Source of the DNA: a virus
Reading direction: 5' to 3' (one strand)
Length of the DNA: 33,361 nt
IMG/VR virus record: IMGVR_UViG_3300042691_025149
Span: 1-33,361 of that record
Positions 5,031 to 27,192 of this stretch are shown here, one piece after another. A model generated the notes under the pieces. The model was not told where the DNA came from. It worked only from the letters and a program-made list of their open reading frames with translations, and did no database searches. Each line of letters starts with the position of its first letter. The first letter of the stretch is position 1. Position numbers and translations under genes: made by a program.

Positions 5031-5043
5031 ATTATTAACGTTT

Positions 5044-5348
5044 TTAAACTTTTCTTTTTGGTACTTTTTCTTTTATAAGACGCAATCCTACGGATATACG
5101 TTTATAACTACGTATGTGATAACGTATTAATATTTTATAAATTGTAGTGTGATCACATTGTACTAAGCGCTTACTTATTCACTGAATGGAAGTTTCTTCA
5201 TTTCCCGAAACATGTCGGTAGCTTCCGTATTTTCTTCTATTTCTTCTTTCTTGTTTACCTTATTTGCTAATTGTTGTTTCTTAGCAAGATTTTCTTCCGA
5301 CTTCTTCTGTGTCTTTTTTAGCAAAGACTGTAACTGCTTTTCATTCAT
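5044..5348 (-). CDS. HTH DNA-binding protein, split by a -1 frameshift
   Basis: Reading from ATG at 5348 gives 57 residues (MNEKQLQSLLKKTQKK...KKLPFSE) and a stop at 5177-5175. Reading on from 5178 in the -1 frame gives 44 more residues, ISKRLVQCDHTTIYKILI and a basic tail ending VPKRKV, stop at 5046-5044. Joined, the junction reads LPFSEISKRLVQCDHTTIYK, a convincing helix-turn-helix; the second part alone has no normal start codon. This is therefore a single-base deletion, a sequencing error, or programmed -1 frameshifting. No classic slippery heptamer is visible at the junction. Confidence 0.65.
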
Positions 5349-5350
5349 TA

Positions 5351-14020: not shown

Positions 14021-16174
14021 ATGACAACGAAGCCCCAGCACTCAAGCTACTGGTTGGATCAGGATGTGTTTGATGATGACGATATTGAAACAGGCCCTTC
14101 CCGCGACGAAACACTTATTCGTATGATGCGGTTGGCGGCAGTTCGTCGGGGTATTTCCAATTTCGTGAATATTCTGACCAACCGTAACGACATTAAAGTA
14201 GAATTTTCCAGCGGTCGTAATTCCTATACGGACGGCAGCACGGTTGTTATTTCTGCTGACGAAGATGCCAACAAGTTTGATCCAATGGTCGGTCTTGCAC
14301 TTCACGAGGCTGCGCACATCAAATTGTCTAATTTTCAATTTCTTACGGCAATCCAGAATGTACGAAACGTGGTAACGTCTGGATATGATGCGTCTCACTG
14401 GAACGGATACACCGACAGAGATGTGATGAACAATCTGTTTCATCCCGCACTGACGAAGACTATTAATAGTAATTCGTCTGATAAGTACGCACGCCTCGAA
14501 CGTCTTCGTACGGCGTTTGAAGATATTCATACCATCATGAACGTGTTAGAAGATCGCCGCATTGACAAGTACGTATATCAGACAGCGCCTGGCTATCGTC
14601 CGTACTACAATGCACTGTACGAAAAATATTTCTTTACCGCAGAAGTTGGTAAGAATCTTCGGTTCAATCCGCAGTGGCGTGAACTGACGGTAGAGAATTA
14701 TATTAATCGTCTAATCTATTTCTTCCATCCCGCAAATAAGATGGACGCACTGCCGGGTATGAAGAAGTTGTACAAGTTGATGGACATTGATACGATTGAA
14801 CGTGTTGGTGAACCGTCGCATGATTGGCAAACGTCTTCTAAGTACGAGACGATGCCACGTCTGTGGAAAGATGCAAATTTGATTTATGTACATATTCTCA
14901 AGTTTGTTGCTGACGCAGAGGAAGCAGGTCAGAAGCCTTCCAATAATCAGTCGCCTGAGAACGGTGATAGTACTGGTACGCCACCCACCCCTCTTCAAGA
15001 TTTGCCGAATTTGGATATGCCCGAATCGTCGGAAATGGTTGCAACTGATGTTGAAACCGACAAGAAGGGTAAGCCGGGCAAGTTTGATCCCACAAAGGCT
15101 GCAAAGGAAATGAAGAAGGCTCAAGAAGTGATTGCTGGTGAAGCAAAGAAGAAAAAGATTACCAAGGCAGAAGCCGAGGCAATTTCTGCAATTGAGCAGG
15201 CACAGGCTGACATGGTAGATATCAAGGGCGATGGTGTTCCGTTCGGTCGGTGCATTGTTCTCCGAAAGCTCAACGATAAGGTGTTGGAGCAGGATTGGTA
15301 CATCTTCCGTAATCATTGGAATAGTTCACATAAGGAACGAGCAATCGTCGCCGGTCGCAGGATGGGTGCCATTCTCGCACAACGTCTCCAAGTGCGTAAT
15401 GATCCAATGATGACGAAGCAGACGCGACTTCCGCAGGGTAATATTGATCGTCGGTTGCTCGCACAGTTGGGTATGGATATTGAACAGGTATTCCATAAGA
15501 GTCGTACGGATATTCATCGTCCTGCGATGTTGCATCTGACGATTGACGCATCGGGTTCTATGTCGGGTGACAAGTGGAACAAGACGATTGCCGTCGCGGT
15601 TGCACTTGCATACGTTGGTAGTAAGATTCGGAACGTGGATACTGTCATTAGTATTCGGGGCGGTACGGAAATTCCACTCGTGAGTATTATCTTTGATTCA
15701 CGCCGTGATCAGTTTCAGACGTTTATGAAGAATGTTCGGAAGATTGCTCCTGCGGGTGGAACGCCAGAAGGTCTGTGCTTCAAGGCAACGTTGGATCTCG
15801 TTCTTGAATGTGCTGACACGCACGATGTGTATTTCATTAACTTCAGTGACGGGGAACCGTCATTCAGTTATACGAAAAGGTCGTCGTTGTCAACCAAGGA
15901 CACATCGGGGTCGTCGTCGGACTACTACAATTATGGTGGCGAACATGCGTGGAATCATACCCGTGCGATGATCAAGCAAATTCGTGATCGTGGAGTCAAG
16001 GTACTAAGTTATTTTATTAGTGAAGTTCCGAAAGAGAGAATTATGAATACTCCGTATAGTGGAGTCCGTGCTTTCAAGACCATGTACGGGGAAAATGCGG
16101 AATTTATTAATGTAGAAAATGCTGGTGAAGTACTCCGAACCCTTAATAAATTGTTATTAACTCGGGGTACTTGA
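14021..16174 (+). CDS. Metallopeptidase-like plus VWA protein (CobT-like)
   Basis: A 717-residue protein. The N-terminal domain carries HEAAH at 95-99, a zinc-peptidase motif, with LEDRRID at 176-182 as a likely third-ligand segment. A low-complexity linker rich in Asn, Pro, Lys and Ala covers about 310-410. The C-terminal VWA domain has an intact MIDAS, DASGSMS (509-515), and NFSDGEPS later. The next gene is a MoxR-type AAA+ ATPase, the standard partner of VWA proteins (CobS/CobT, CbbQ/CbbO). The pair probably acts as a metal-dependent protein-remodelling or proteolytic machine; the target is unknown. Confidence 0.85.
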   Translation: MTTKPQHSSYWLDQDVFDDDDIETGPSRDETLIRMMRLAAVRRGISNFVNILTNRNDIKVEFSSGRNSYTDGSTVVISADEDANKFDPMVGLALHEAAHIKLSNFQFLTAIQNVRNVVTSGYDASHWNGYTDRDVMNNLFHPALTKTINSNSSDKYARLERLRTAFEDIHTIMNVLEDRRIDKYVYQTAPGYRPYYNALYEKYFFTAEVGKNLRFNPQWRELTVENYINRLIYFFHPANKMDALPGMKKLYKLMDIDTIERVGEPSHDWQTSSKYETMPRLWKDANLIYVHILKFVADAEEAGQKPSNNQSPENGDSTGTPPTPLQDLPNLDMPESSEMVATDVETDKKGKPGKFDPTKAAKEMKKAQEVIAGEAKKKKITKAEAEAISAIEQAQADMVDIKGDGVPFGRCIVLRKLNDKVLEQDWYIFRNHWNSSHKERAIVAGRRMGAILAQRLQVRNDPMMTKQTRLPQGNIDRRLLAQLGMDIEQVFHKSRTDIHRPAMLHLTIDASGSMSGDKWNKTIAVAVALAYVGSKIRNVDTVISIRGGTEIPLVSIIFDSRRDQFQTFMKNVRKIAPAGGTPEGLCFKATLDLVLECADTHDVYFINFSDGEPSFSYTKRSSLSTKDTSGSSSDYYNYGGEHAWNHTRAMIKQIRDRGVKVLSYFISEVPKERIMNTPYSGVRAFKTMYGENAEFINVENAGEVLRTLNKLLLTRGT

Positions 16175-16199
16175 CAAGTAGGGCAAAAGGTGTTATATT
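16171..16199 (+). promoter_or_regulatory. Promoter for the AAA+ gene
   Basis: TTGACA (16171-16176) overlaps the VWA stop codon; 17-bp spacer, TATATT (16194-16199). The expected start is near 16206, giving a leader of about 37 nt. Confidence 0.85.
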
Positions 16200-16242
16200 A
16201 TAAGAGTGTCAATTAAACAAACTTTCTAACAACGAGGAAACA

Positions 16243-17397
16243 GTGGCTAAGGAAATCGTAGTAACCCTGAATGACGCGGGTGATGTTGTGGATCTGAACG
16301 GTAAGTCGTATTCCGATCTCCCTGCTCATACGGTACGAGCTCTCCGAAAGGAGGGTGGATGTTTTCGGTTGGCGACAACCAAGACTGGCGGTACGCAGTG
16401 GCGACACGAGGATATTAGTTACTACAATCACCTTGCAAAGACGGCGGTCCCGTTGGATAATGTAGATAATCGTACGGATGAGATGCAGCAGGACGTTGAG
16501 CAGTTCATCAAGAATAGTGCAACGCTTCGTCCGACGAATCTGATTCTTTCGGATCTCAAGTGGAAGTATCTGATGCGCTCGGTTGTTCGTGGTAAGAATA
16601 TCATGATGACGGGTCCGTCTGGTTGCGGTAAGACTCTCGCCGTCCAGAGTGTTGCTAAGGCTCTTAATGGTCGGCAGTTCTTCTACTTCAACCTTGGCGC
16701 AACTACCGATCCGCGTTCTACTCTTATCGGAAATACGCACTACAGTAAGGACAAGGGTACGCACGTTGCTGACGCTCTGTTCGTCCGTGCTATTCAAACG
16801 GAAAATGCAATTATCCTTATGGACGAATTGACTCGTGCGAATCCAGACGCGTGGAATATTCTGATGACGGTCCTTGATGAAAATCAGCGTTATCTCCGTA
16901 TTGATGAAAAGCCGGAAACGCCGACGATCAAGGTTGCGAAGGGTGTCACGTTTGTCGCCACCGCCAATATCGGTGCTGAGTATACCGCAACTCGTGTTCT
17001 GGATCGTGCCATGATGGATCGGTTCTCCGCAATTGTTGAGATGGAGCCACTGTCCAAGGATGACGAAGCTACCCTACTTCGCATGACATACCCGAATCTG
17101 ACAGAAAAAGATGTAATTGCAATTTCGGAAATTGCCTCGCACACTCGTGTACAAGCTCGGTCGGATGACCCAAAGGTTACTACCTCTATTTCCAGTCGTC
17201 TGACAGTGGAGATGGCAGGGTTGATTCACGATGGGTTCAGTCTCGCAGAGGCAGCAGAGGTGTGTATCTACCCCTTCTTCAGTGAAGCAGGTGGTGTGGA
17301 TTCGGAACGTACCTACATGAAGCAGTTGGTTCAGAAGTATCTCCCGTCTGATTCGGCAGGTAATACGCCGTGGGGAAATACGTCCGCCTCTTTCTAA
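16243..17397 (+). CDS. MoxR/CobS-type AAA+ ATPase
   Basis: A 384-residue protein. Walker A GPSGCGKT (124-131) and Walker B IILMDE (D194/E195) are intact; sensor and arginine-finger segments (TFVATANIGAEYT, LDRAMMDRFSAIVEM) follow. The first 100 residues are an extra N-terminal domain. GTG is the start, after AACGAGGAAACA. MoxR-family ATPases form hexamers and work with VWA partners to load metals or remodel proteins; the partner is the preceding gene. CobS homologues also occur in T4-like cyanophages. Confidence 0.92.
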   Translation: MAKEIVVTLNDAGDVVDLNGKSYSDLPAHTVRALRKEGGCFRLATTKTGGTQWRHEDISYYNHLAKTAVPLDNVDNRTDEMQQDVEQFIKNSATLRPTNLILSDLKWKYLMRSVVRGKNIMMTGPSGCGKTLAVQSVAKALNGRQFFYFNLGATTDPRSTLIGNTHYSKDKGTHVADALFVRAIQTENAIILMDELTRANPDAWNILMTVLDENQRYLRIDEKPETPTIKVAKGVTFVATANIGAEYTATRVLDRAMMDRFSAIVEMEPLSKDDEATLLRMTYPNLTEKDVIAISEIASHTRVQARSDDPKVTTSISSRLTVEMAGLIHDGFSLAEAAEVCIYPFFSEAGGVDSERTYMKQLVQKYLPSDSAGNTPWGNTSASF

Positions 17398-17583: not shown

Positions 17584-17749
17584 GACGTATAAAGATCAAC
17601 GGAAATATGACAAGAGAGCTCGTCACAGAGAAGACGATACAGTTGGTAAAAGTGTTCCTAGAAAGAATAGAAAGCATTATGAAGAAATTATTCCAGAAGA
17701 CGAGCCGTTGAACCCATATGAGATTTACGATTACGAAGATTACGAATAA
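17576..17749 (+). CDS. Charged small protein
   Basis: A 57-residue protein starting MGKTYKDQRKYDKRARHRED; the first half is strongly basic and the end acidic and Tyr-rich (NPYEIYDYEDYE). It overlaps the KOW gene stop by 8 bp. It is probably disordered; nucleic-acid contact is plausible. No family is recognised. Confidence 0.55.
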   Translation: MGKTYKDQRKYDKRARHREDDTVGKSVPRKNRKHYEEIIPEDEPLNPYEIYDYEDYE

Positions 17750-17760
17750 AAACTGACCCC

Positions 17761-17789
17761 TTGACAAATGACGTAAACGGGGTTATATT
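17761..17789 (+). promoter_or_regulatory. Promoter of the main tRNA array
   Basis: TTGACA (17761-17766) after CCCC, 17-bp spacer, TATATT (17784-17789). The first array elements follow within 55 bp. Confidence 0.85.
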
Positions 17790-17843
17790 ACAAGAGTAAT
17801 GAAGAACGATACGTTGTTTGACAAAAGAAATATGAAAAGCACG

Positions 17844-17892
17844 GGGGTTGGTGACCAGAGTGGGTCACGCAACCAGAAGAGTTACCAACCCC
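17844..17892 (+). ncRNA. Structured RNA block 1 of the tRNA array
   Basis: GGGGTTGGT (17844-17852) pairs with ACCAACCCC (17884-17892), 9 bp. Inside, ACC/GGT-type hairpin TGACC (17852-17856) pairs with GGTCA (17863-17867). It has no ORF of its own. It sits 5 bp before tRNA-Glu and would be released with it. Confidence 0.5.
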
Positions 17893-17897
17893 ACAAT

Positions 17898-18066: not shown

Positions 18067-18147
18067 AGGTGAATTACGAAGGTTGGAGGGGAGCGGTTCT
18101 AGACCGTGCTGGTAACCTTGGGTACCTAGAAAATACCCGAATCACCT
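18067..18147 (+). ncRNA. Structured RNA block 2 of the tRNA array
   Basis: AGGTGA (18067-18072)/TCACCT (18142-18147), AAGGTT (18079-18084)/AACCTT (18114-18119), and GGGTA (18120-18124)/TACCC (18134-18138) form a branched fold. GGGGAG in the second loop can also pair with CTCCCC just after the block, a possible pseudoknot. The upstream part (17970-18066) also holds short hairpins. The block looks vaguely tRNA-sized, but the T-loop is not canonical. Confidence 0.5.
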
Positions 18148-18159
18148 CCCCACCTCTAT

Positions 18160-19125: not shown

Positions 19126-19777
19126 CATTCACGGAAATACCAAACGACTTGCTTGGGCAATTAAACAAGCAGAGGATCAAGGTGCGGTTGCTCTTATTCA
19201 ACTTGGTGATTTTGGAATGTTCACGAAGAATGAAATGGATGCAACGTTTAAATACGTTTGTTCAAAATCAAACATCCCGGTCTATTTTATTGATGGGAAC
19301 CATGACGATTGTACACGTTGGGTTGGGTTGACCGACGTTACACAAATTTGGGAAGATACAAATTTGTTTTATGTACCCCGTGGAACTGTGATGGAGTTGG
19401 ATGGTCGGACGGTTGCCTTCATGGGTGGTGCAGCAAGTATTGACAAACATACCCGAATTCGTTACCATTGGCATTGGGATGAAGAAGAGAATATCAGTCC
19501 GCAAGAAGTTCTTCGTTTGATGGAAAATGTGAAAGATAAAAAGATTGATATGTTCTTAACGCACTGTCCACCGAACTCTGTGATCAACGATCATTTTGAT
19601 CCTCGTGGTAAATTACAATTTGGTGTTCCCATAGATTGGCACGATCATAATCAAGATATTATTGAAAATGCGTGGAGAAGTATGGGATTCCCAGATATTT
19701 ATTCTGGCCACATGCACAAACGAGTAGAAGGCGGTACATATCGTATCTTGGATATTGACGAATTGATTTTTGTATGA
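19106..19777 (+). CDS. Calcineurin-like metallophosphoesterase
   Basis: A 223-residue protein. All five metal-binding blocks are present: GDIHG (6-10), GDFG, GNHDD, THCPP, and GHMHK near the end. These dinuclear enzymes hydrolyse phosphate mono- or diesters; phage members include DNA-end or nucleotide phosphatases. The substrate is unknown. It overlaps both neighbouring genes. Confidence 0.92.
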   Translation: MIALLGDIHGNTKRLAWAIKQAEDQGAVALIQLGDFGMFTKNEMDATFKYVCSKSNIPVYFIDGNHDDCTRWVGLTDVTQIWEDTNLFYVPRGTVMELDGRTVAFMGGAASIDKHTRIRYHWHWDEEENISPQEVLRLMENVKDKKIDMFLTHCPPNSVINDHFDPRGKLQFGVPIDWHDHNQDIIENAWRSMGFPDIYSGHMHKRVEGGTYRILDIDELIFV

Positions 19778-19998
19778 ACAGATTAGATAGGTTATATAAA
19801 CGATTACAAAAAATTGGAATAGAACTCACGTTAGTCGGAAACTATCCGTGGATCTATTTACATAAAGTAAACGGCAATATCGTGTCAGAAAAGTTTATGG
19901 CCGAACATGGATTTACGATTGCATTTTTGGTCGGTAGAACTGGTATGGAATTAACGGATACAAAAAAGATATTTGAAATAATCAGAAAGTATAGATAA
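19774..19998 (+). CDS. Hypothetical protein
   Basis: A 74-residue protein starting MNRLDRLYKRLQKIGIEL, then LVGNYPWIYLHKVNGNIV and GFTIAFLVG. The start overlaps the phosphoesterase stop (ATGA). The form looks like a small helix-plus-sheet fold. It recalls conserved short cyanophage proteins, but I cannot name one. Confidence 0.6.
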   Translation: MNRLDRLYKRLQKIGIELTLVGNYPWIYLHKVNGNIVSEKFMAEHGFTIAFLVGRTGMELTDTKKIFEIIRKYR

Positions 19999-20008
19999 CA
20001 TTGCAGGG

Positions 20009-20285
20009 CGGGTCTTACCCGATTAGTGGTCGTATGGAAAGACATCTGTTTGAAAGTTCCCTGAAACTCACCGAAAGGAACTGAGGATGAATGCCGACGT
20101 TGTATAGGGGTGGCTGGAACCTGGTGAATGAGTCTCCGTCCAGGCGGCACACAGATGAAAGTTGCAACTCTTCATCACCTGATATTGCAGGACAACATCT
20201 TTCCCGCTTTGTTATCTCACTTTTCGCATGGGCATACATGCGTGATGGGTAAATACGTCTTGATGCTCAACATGCCGATCAAGAC
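20009..20285 (+). ncRNA. Large structured RNA in the tRNA array
   Basis: About 280 nt without a gene. Paired parts: CGGGT/ACCCG (20009-20021); a long-range helix CATCTGT (20043-20049)/ACAGATG (20151-20157); inside it an H-type pseudoknot, GTTCC (20056-20060)/GGAAC (20077-20081) and CTCA (20067-20070)/TGAG (20082-20085); CCTGG/CCAGG (20120-20144); GATGAA/TTCATC (20154-20176); CGCATG/CATGCG (20225-20242); GTCTTGAT/ATCAAGAC (20257-20285). It is not RNase P, tmRNA or a known intron by its core motifs. It ends 27 bp before tRNA-Thr. Confidence 0.6.
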
Positions 20286-20312
20286 ACAAGAATGATGAAT
20301 GTTAATGTTTGT

Positions 20313-20385
20313 GCTGGCATAGCTCAGTTGGTAGAGCAACTGATTTGTAATCAGTAGGTCGGGGGTTCAAATCCCTCTGTCAGCT
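20313..20385 (+). tRNA. tRNA-Thr (TGT)
   Basis: Acceptor GCTGGCA/TGTCAGC, anticodon stem CTGA/TCAG, loop TTTGTAA giving TGT. Confidence 0.95.
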
Positions 20386-20389
20386 CTTT

Positions 20390-20464: not shown

Positions 20465-20467
20465 TTT

Positions 20468-20541
20468 AAATGTTAGGTGCAATCGCAGAATCTGGCGGTT
20501 AAACTGTGACAGAAAAAGACTTCATGGTTCGTCTAACATTT
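20468..20541 (+). ncRNA. Structured RNA block 3, tRNA-sized
   Basis: AAATGTTAG (20468-20476) pairs with CTAACATTT (20533-20541), 9 bp, giving a 74-nt closed unit between tRNA-Pro and the next block. GGTTCG occurs near the 3' side but no T-stem forms. It may be a decayed tRNA or an independent RNA. Confidence 0.45.
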
Positions 20542-20542
20542 T

Positions 20543-20661
20543 AAAATGTGTGTGACTAATAGCTGCTTACCGAGCAGTGCTCCGGCGAGAAACAGAGAAT
20601 GTGACATATGACACGGACTCTATCGGTACAGAAAATCTTGTCAATTTTCTGCACACATTTT
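20543..20661 (+). ncRNA. Structured RNA block 4
   Basis: AAAATGTGTG (20543-20552) pairs with CACACATTTT (20652-20661), 10 bp. Inside: CTGCT/AGCAG (20563-20577) and CAGAAAAT/ATTTTCTG (20629-20651), the latter abutting the closing helix. tRNA-Val starts 3 bp later. Confidence 0.5.
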
Positions 20662-20664
20662 CTT

Positions 20665-21232: not shown

Positions 21233-21236
21233 TTTA

Positions 21237-21356
21237 AACGAGACATATTCATCATTGGTTGATAGCCTTGAGCGGATGGCAAACCGGGACTACGCAACGA
21301 AGCAGCCTAGCCAGCGCGATGAAAAGTCCCAATGGGGGACGAGAATATGTCTCGTT
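21237..21356 (+). ncRNA. Structured RNA block 5 with 14-bp closing helix
   Basis: AACGAGACATATTC (21237-21250) pairs perfectly with GAATATGTCTCGTT (21343-21356). Inner options: CATTGG/CCAATG, and GGGACT/AGTCCC. It lies between tRNA-Tyr and tRNA-Ile. No ORF is visible. Confidence 0.6.
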
Positions 21357-23193: not shown

Positions 23194-24042
23194 ATGAAAA
23201 AACTATTTCTTGCTTTACTACTCGCAGTTAATACTGCACACGCACAAGTTGTTTCACAACAGAATTTGGTACAACAGGACTTGGGATGGTATACCGTCAC
23301 CCAAGGAAATGGAAATGCTACGGTCACAGGCGCAAATCCACGATATGGGTTTGGTGATGTCGGTGAGCAATCTTTACAACTCCAAACATCAGGTAAGATG
23401 AACGATTGGATCTTTGCTTACCGATACGCAGAAACCAATTGGGGTATGTTATCTGATATCACCAACTTGAGTTTTGATTGGTTCCGTGTCTCTAATCCGA
23501 ATTGGGATGCGGATATAACCAAGGATGGCATTCAACTATATGATTGGAAGTATAAGTCACCTGCGTTTCGTTTGTTCTTTAGTGACCATACAGAGATTGT
23601 ATGGGAAAATTATTTCAATCGTCCAATTGACAACGATTTAAGTTATGTTGATACATGGCAGACTTCAGACATGATGAATGGCAATTTCTGGTATCGTGAT
23701 GGGGTTGGGTATAGTCTGAATACGAATCCTTGTACTACCAATGAAATGCCAATTTGGGGCGGGAATGTACAAACGTTGAGTATCACAAAACTTATTGATT
23801 GCTACGGTGACAAGCAAGTAGTTGGTGTTGGGGTTGGATTGGGTAGTCAATGGCCGTATCAGTACAAAGGGTTTGTGGATAACGTGAGAATTTCCAGTAG
23901 GGGTAATGAAGTCTTGAATACCAATTTTGATCGTCGTGGTCATGGTCCTGTAACTACGGTTCCTGAACCCACTACATACGCAATGATGTTATTGGGATTG
24001 GTCGGACTTGGATTTGTAGCACGAGGACGGAAGACTTCATGA
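23194..24042 (+). CDS. PEP-CTERM exported protein
   Basis: A 282-residue protein. An N-terminal signal (KKLFLALLLAVNTAHA) precedes a beta-rich domain with aromatic repeats. The C-terminus is VPEPTTYAMMLLGLVGL, a PEP motif and hydrophobic helix, then ARGRK. Host exosortase cleaves this signal and anchors or releases such proteins, often with exopolysaccharide. Finding one in a phage implies a host with an exosortase system. It overlaps the following gene (ATGA). Confidence 0.85.
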   Translation: MKKLFLALLLAVNTAHAQVVSQQNLVQQDLGWYTVTQGNGNATVTGANPRYGFGDVGEQSLQLQTSGKMNDWIFAYRYAETNWGMLSDITNLSFDWFRVSNPNWDADITKDGIQLYDWKYKSPAFRLFFSDHTEIVWENYFNRPIDNDLSYVDTWQTSDMMNGNFWYRDGVGYSLNTNPCTTNEMPIWGGNVQTLSITKLIDCYGDKQVVGVGVGLGSQWPYQYKGFVDNVRISSRGNEVLNTNFDRRGHGPVTTVPEPTTYAMMLLGLVGLGFVARGRKTS

Positions 24043-25674: not shown

Positions 25675-25683
25675 TACAAACGT

Positions 25684-25767
25684 GTGAGCATGTCTTCCTA
25701 CCATTTGGTATAGTCATCTCACTACTCACCGCCAGTTGGGTACAACGGGGTCGCTCCCCGAACTGGC
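25684..25767 (+). ncRNA. Structured spacer before tRNA-Asp
   Basis: Two hairpins: GTGAG/CTCAC (25684-25722), and GCCAGTT (25731-25737)/AACTGGC (25761-25767) enclosing CGGGG/CCCCG (25746-25760). No ORF. It resembles the spacers in the main array. Confidence 0.45.
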
Positions 25768-25771
25768 AGTT

Positions 25772-26858: not shown

Positions 26859-26918
26859 CGTAAATTGAATTTGTCTAGTCCGTTTGTAACTACCGCTTCA
26901 CTACATTTGTTTGCTTTA

Positions 26919-26982
26919 GCTGTAAGGACGAGTTCGACTCTCGTATGTTCCGTTACTTTGTATAGTGTTGGACTGGCTCGTG
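26919..26982 (+). repeat. 64-bp direct repeat, copy 2
   Basis: A perfect copy of 25810-25873 carrying only the 3' part of tRNA-Asp, so it is not a functional tRNA. It lies 60 bp after the glycosyltransferase stop and runs into the end of the next gene. Confidence 0.9.
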
Positions 26983-27192
26983 ATGTTGCTTATGGTCCTT
27001 GGGTTCTGGGCGCCCAACGTGTGGCGGTTTAGTTTTCCCCTGCGCATATTTCACCGCATCTTCCCGATCTATAAAGTATCGGATATCCCCCGTATTACTT
27101 TTCGCACCATAAAACTTTTTCGGCGTGACCCATACTTCGCCATCGCTATATTCTTCGGTGCGTTCCATTAAGATGTCAAGTAATGATATCAT
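26953..27192 (-). CDS. Small hypothetical protein ending in the repeat
   Basis: A 79-residue protein starting MISLLDILMERTEEYSDGE. Middle YFIDREDAVKYAQGKTK looks like a conserved small phage protein. The last residues (about 10) are encoded by repeat copy 2, so the original C-terminus may have been replaced when the segment formed. Its start overlaps the next gene's end by 17 bp. Confidence 0.6.
   Translation of the reverse strand: MISLLDILMERTEEYSDGEVWVTPKKFYGAKSNTGDIRYFIDREDAVKYAQGKTKPPHVGRPEPKDHKQHHEPVQHYTK

Follow-up and report, generated by a model that had tools for sequence, protein, structure and literature searches.

Two separate conserved RNAs predicted side by side in a viral tRNA array

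A gene-free block among tRNA genes

What does the gene-free block in front of the tRNA-Thr gene of this viral tRNA array encode? A sequence-only reading had drawn positions 20009-20285 as a single multi-helix RNA of about 280 nt, held together by a long-range helix and an H-type pseudoknot. The window, by which we mean the whole 33,361-nucleotide stretch analysed here (a 33-kb virus record, G000), carries 26 tRNA genes and one tmRNA, and tRNA arrays of similar kind occur in related contigs. The T4-type major capsid protein (Gp23) is encoded by four of the nine large records tested, and G018 and G024 encode both Gp23 and the RNA that we call RNA A below. The block is flanked by two features:

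19774-19998, + strand: upstream ORF of 74 aa, whose stop codon TAA lies inside helix P1 of RNA A
20313-20386, + strand: tRNA-Thr(UGU), the next gene of the array

The 314-nt stretch 19999-20312 is without a convincing gene. It had been taken for the largest non-coding block between genes, but by our gene list it is the fourth largest gap, after 1-615, 5031-5350 and 26859-27175, some of which may hold uncalled genes. The claim that no reading frame explains the segment was borne out, since the indels among homologues are not multiples of three and no frame over the block is kept; the longest frame on the antisense strand varies from member to member (31-79 aa). Rfam 15 returned no match to 19994-20300 at the gathering cut-off or even at E≤5, so that the known-family hit named beforehand as evidence against a new fold was absent and the exclusion of RNase P, tmRNA, SRP and group I introns stood. 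Among the RNA A homologues Rfam gave nothing beyond tRNA overlaps, partly among the best 150 matches listed, and it matched none of the divergent copies of the second RNA, RNA B; blastn against annotated phages and plasmids found neither RNA. Together with a limited paper search, these results suggest that neither has been described before. A likeness to RNase P seen by eye (GGAAAG, ACAGA) was rejected, as it had no Rfam support and GGAAAG pairs here with CUUUCC.

Several other parts of the region drew our attention. A promoter scan gave results no better than shuffles, and a terminator scan returned 9 candidates versus 5.0±1.9 in shuffles, mostly on the opposite strand or within tRNAs. Of the sigma-70-like promoters in the region the best, TTGACA-17-TATATT at 17761-17789, lies at the start of a segment just 5' of tRNA-Glu (17747-17897) that is 88% conserved in L021 and L022, and is perhaps the promoter of the tRNA array. 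The block before tRNA-Gln (18079-18158) is 79-90% conserved in L025, L035 and L023 and folds no better than shuffles, while the one before tRNA-Asp (25675-25770) folds better (z = -3.1). Two blocks between tRNAs at 20466-20663 each have a long closing helix (AAUGUUAG../..CUAACAUU and AAAUGUGUG../..CACACAUUU; z = -1.7 and -2.2); homologues of the first occur in L009, L010 and L035, and the ends of the second recur in L025 and L016. A further non-coding block, between tRNA-Tyr and tRNA-Ile (21236-21356), is closed by a 14-bp helix and scores z = -3.96 against shuffles, with no homologue among the fetched related loci. As for proteins, 14021-17397 encodes a 717-aa protein weakly matching a phage 'cobalamin biosynthesis' family, followed by a MoxR/CobS-like AAA ATPase (16243-17397), and the phage protein at 23194-24042 has a C-terminal PEP-CTERM sorting signal, which is unusual in phage and a possible clue to the host.

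Fold and covariation of RNA A

We collected homologues of RNA A by way of neighbouring proteins, by searching their records at the DNA level and with the invariant 19-mer TTAGTGGTCGTATGGAAAG, which resulted in an alignment of nine distinct sequences including the window, all from related phages. The sole cellular-genome match to the 19-mer, L086, looks coding and lacks the fold, and we regard it as a chance match, as we do the apparently coding DNA that looser patterns picked up in L085, L096 and L097. The members are 194-270 nt long and share a fold in which P1 closes the molecule around seven other helices, with GGAAAGR and YCUUUCC pairing over a long range as a pseudoknot. In the window its parts are as follows:

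19994-20216, + strand: RNA A, the whole unit closed by P1, with nine distinct homologues and a 184-bit match of model R1 at 19995-20215
19994-20004, + strand: P1, 5' strand, pairing with 20206-20216, in the window with two U.U mismatches
20009-20021, + strand: P2, hairpin CGGG-UCUUA-CCCG, 4 bp, loop UCUUA invariant
20026-20101, + strand: arm P3-P4-P5
20026-20033 with 20094-20101, + strand: P3
20036-20042, + strand: pseudoknot 5' strand GGAAAGA, between P3 and P4, 7 bp with 20198-20204
20043-20047 with 20085-20089, + strand: P4 (CAUCU)
20055-20060 with 20077-20082, + strand: P5 hairpin, its stem freely exchanged among relatives
20102-20109 with 20178-20188, + strand: P6, enclosing P7 and P8
20154-20176, + strand: P8, hairpin GAUGAA/UUCAUC, with the palindrome AGUUGCAACU (20160-20169) in its loop
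20198-20204, + strand: pseudoknot 3' strand UCUUUCC, just before the P1 3' strand
20206-20216, + strand: P1, 3' strand, pairing with 19994-20004

It is covariation, not folding energy, that lifts this structure above chance. The window copy folds no better than its shuffles (z = -0.1 for the block and -0.42 for RNA A alone), and the relatives fold somewhat better than shuffles (z = -1.9 to -2.3). Across the alignment, in which 95.5% of the cells are paired in the common fold, changes on both sides of the pair were found in 19 of 60 pairs, against 8.4±1.9 in shuffles (0/500) and 1-5 when the structure was slid. With a tree-based null, implemented in Python, four structure pairs reached E<0.05, and 5 of 18,085 non-structure pairs exceeded the same cut. 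The R1 alignment, like that behind the RNA B model R3, leans towards its own model; the misalignment of P5 by one column in some rows has lowered the P5 count, not raised it.

Both-sided changes occur in 4 of 10 P1 pairs, and the P2 stem reads CGGG/CCCG, CGAG/CUCG, CGUA/UACG or CGGC/GCCG among relatives, both of its variable pairs being significant. P4 appears as CAUCU/GGAUG in the window, CAUUC/GAAUG in L021 and CAUCC/GGAUG in L073, and P8 has three covarying stem pairs around a palindrome, AGUUGCAACU, that is identical in eight of nine members; in L021 the whole hairpin with its palindrome is absent. The core of P3, GUCG/CGAC, never varies, and covariation thus neither supports nor refutes it. 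The pseudoknot is kept in all nine members, its last pair being A-U in three and G-C in six, so that its support consists of a single covarying pair (E=0.14, tree-based null) and of invariance. At the position of P7, L026 and L031 have what appears by eye to be a second P3-P5 module, in which the GAUGAAUAACGACGAU strand is repeated but GGAAAG is not.

How does this fold compare with the one that had been drawn by eye? A non-coding, multi-helix, pseudoknotted RNA is indeed what the homologues point to, and covariation came out in favour of a conserved fold, though largely not the drawn one. Both signature features are lost in homologues, the outcome that had been named as speaking against them. 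The long-range helix, 20043-20049 with 20151-20157, has its full set of pairs only in the window and in L025, the closest relative; elsewhere it has C.A and A.A at its ends, C.A also inside it in L073, and its 3' strand is mostly missing in L021, while its 5' strand pairs instead with GGAUG at 20085-20089 to form P4. Stem 1 of the H-type pseudoknot at 20056-20085 survives as the conserved hairpin P5, but stem 2 is confined to the window, being CUCA/UGAG there, CUCU/UUAG in L025 and without counterpart elsewhere. The boundaries also shifted: the real 5' end lies about 15 nt upstream of 20009, in an overlap with the stop codon of the ORF before it.

RNA B and the separate distribution of the two RNAs

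The 3' part of the block behaved differently from RNA A. At the DNA level, 20003-20208 found its matches in other contigs than 20221-20295 did, and the second of these segments contains a two-hairpin element:

20222-20293, + strand: RNA B, two hairpins; model R3, 98 bits
20225-20230 with 20237-20242, + strand: RNA B hairpin 1, loop GGCAUA
20257-20264 with 20278-20285, + strand: RNA B hairpin 2

The loops GGCAUA and GCUCAACAUGCC are complementary, giving a candidate kissing interaction of 20231-20235 with 20272-20276. The loop cores GGCAU/AUGCC are complementary in every member; their invariance is partly a product of our search patterns, and we therefore treat the kissing contact as inferred. 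In 12 distinct aligned members, to which more divergent copies in other phages can be added, both-sided changes were seen in 11 of 14 pairs versus 5.8±1.4 in shuffles, and seven of the 14 were significant under the tree-based null. When the pattern was loosened, this hairpin pair also turned up in other phages, L134, L135 and L139 among them, along with many further matches without any stems. RNA B stands beside tRNA genes in most members. The divergent copies in L139, L142, L128, L118 and L136 lie outside tRNA arrays: by eye, a GC-rich stem with U after it encloses the hairpin pair in L139 (2208-2264), L142 (10240-10290) and L128 (reverse strand), and a terminator-like hairpin, likewise seen by eye, follows the pair in L118 and L136. 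No annotated relatives of these contexts were found. RNA B is a separate, probably cis-acting element, and the terminator-like stems that enclose or adjoin it in some phages hint at a role in termination.

The two RNAs also come apart in their occurrence. RNA B is present without RNA A in L016, L033, L036, L115 and L124, among others, and RNA A without RNA B in L015, L026, L031, L035 and L073; they adjoin in the window, L025 and L023, and are 6.4 kb apart in L021. In favour of a single 280-nt RNA folded as drawn by eye, the window sequence itself does allow the drawn pairings, but with the two parts separable in relatives and neither the long-range helix nor the H-type pseudoknot conserved, we give this idea next to no credence. 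Comparative analysis thus indicates that the block is a real structured locus, made up of two separate conserved RNAs side by side.

RNA A was found in nine of 50 related records, many of the 41 without a match being fragments, and every one of the nine members sits in the midst of tRNA genes and is encoded on their strand. P1 starts 1 nt after tRNA-Gly in L015 and 0 nt after tRNA-Met in L026, and in six members the upstream frame ends within P1, its stop falling at nucleotides 2-4 of the helix in the window, L031, L035, L021 and L073 and at 7-9 in L025. These upstream frames differ in their C-termini, except that those of L031 and L073 are related, and L033 offers an empty site, with tRNA-Gly followed directly by RNA B. 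From the differing frames and the empty site it follows that RNA A is modular and not tied to one neighbour; and the starts abutting tRNAs, the stops inside P1 and L033 together mark a sharp 5' boundary and a module gained or lost as a unit. In L016, another apparently folded non-coding sequence (1191-1490) lies between tRNA-Gly and RNA B, the place taken by RNA A elsewhere; it has no Rfam match, and a B12-riboswitch look noticed by eye in L016 was discarded for lack of Rfam support.

Possible roles and relation to known phage RNAs

The conserved fold, the placement in arrays on the tRNA strand and the modular distribution of RNA A are direct observations, and several explanations compete for them. 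We give about an even chance to the view that RNA A is a stand-alone RNA released from the tRNA-array transcript and RNA B a separate, likely cis-acting element. RNA A would be co-transcribed with the array, and the enzymes that excise the neighbouring tRNAs would free it as a molecule closed by P1. The pseudoknot GGAAAGR/YCUUUCC would tie together its body, which would present the invariant loops UCUUA (P2) and AGUUGCAACU (P8). The molecule may work in trans, either as the scaffold of a component of translation or RNA processing, from host or phage, or as its ligand. It is possibly dimeric through the P8 palindrome, although dimerisation is not essential to all members, given that L021 lacks P8. 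Against this view count the window copy, which folds no better than shuffles, and the small sample of nine sequences from related phages. RNA B, in turn, would most likely be a cis-acting element that affects termination, processing or the formation of 3' ends.

Alternatively, RNA A, and RNA B with it, might be cis-acting spacers of the tRNA precursor that separate tRNAs, guide their processing or stability and have no function once the precursor is cut. That in L015 and L026 the 3' end of a tRNA borders RNA A and that RNA B adjoins tRNA genes in most members fits this well, yet most related arrays do without RNA A (41 of 50 records, many of them fragments), its neighbours differ between members, and its invariant joints and loops exceed what a spacer needs, which leaves the spacer role unlikely, if still a serious contender. 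The patchy, modular occurrence next to tRNAs, as for accessory genes, would also suit a counter-defence or decoy RNA, such as bait for a tRNA-attacking host nuclease or a CRISPR-type effector; this we find improbable, as no CRISPR or other Rfam family scored above cut-off, partly among the best 150 matches listed, and the fold is not tRNA-like. Very improbable is a catalytic or mobile RNA, a ribozyme or intron-like element inserting beside tRNAs and genes: the sharp 5' boundary and the six upstream frames ending within P1 are what it would lead one to expect, but there was no ribozyme or intron family match, partly among the best 150 matches listed, and no interrupted gene or tRNA at the sites read.

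With less than even confidence, we tentatively propose that RNAs A and B represent two classes of phage RNA not described before. RNA A would be an exchangeable module of T4-type tRNA arrays, with a pseudoknot and possibly able to dimerise with itself, and RNA B a two-hairpin kissing-loop element recurring in apparently unrelated phages. Being compact (about 200 nt), supported by covariation and equipped with a testable dimer loop, RNA A would be easier to express, probe and solve than giant RNAs. The near-identical loops of RNA B in unrelated phages provide a concrete motif for searches and for tests of regulatory elements, and its repeated occurrence in or next to terminator-like stems makes it a candidate new cis-regulatory or antitermination RNA.

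For RNA B, the put RNA of phage HK022 invites comparison, a short phage RNA whose effect on transcription termination is exerted in cis. Both have two hairpins, and some divergent RNA B copies lie in or beside terminator-like stems, but the complementary loops and longer linker of RNA B set it apart from put; R3 gave no match in the HK022 genome at E≤5 in a run without positive control.

Conserved RNAs of unknown job recur in phage tRNA islands, T4 rnaC and rnaD, GOLLD and ROOL being examples. The T4 pair are late RNAs detected on Northern blots (PMC9697503) and, like RNA A, small structured RNAs of unknown function within the tRNA cluster of a T4-type phage, rnaD lying 1 nt from tRNA-Arg; they measure 139 and 119 nt, against 194-270 nt for RNA A. 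With filters off, the best R1 overlap with rnaC was 2 bits, the whole T4 genome matched neither R1 nor R3, and blastn of rnaC and rnaD against the window gave short low-scoring matches only, many at the tRNA T-arm-like end of rnaC. GOLLD and ROOL occur near phage tRNA islands and form RNA-only complexes that oligomerise via kissing loops (PMC12286853). They resemble RNA A in belonging to phages or prophages, in their frequent nearness to tRNA islands, in being pseudoknotted and in having no known function, and to their assembly by loop contacts (PMC12286853) the invariant palindromic loop of RNA A adds a hint of a parallel. GOLLD, however, often exceeds 800 nt and is thus far larger, no secondary structure shared with GOLLD or ROOL was recognised, and neither matched RNA A in the Rfam scans, provided that the library includes both, as is implied by Rfam being the source of the GOLLD, ROOL and OLE models in that study (PMC12286853). 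By the sequence tests made, RNA A is not a member of the T4 rnaC/rnaD or GOLLD/ROOL families. It resembles them in kind: the trait common to all of these RNAs, that of being phage-encoded and beside tRNA genes, is found in every one of the nine RNA A members.
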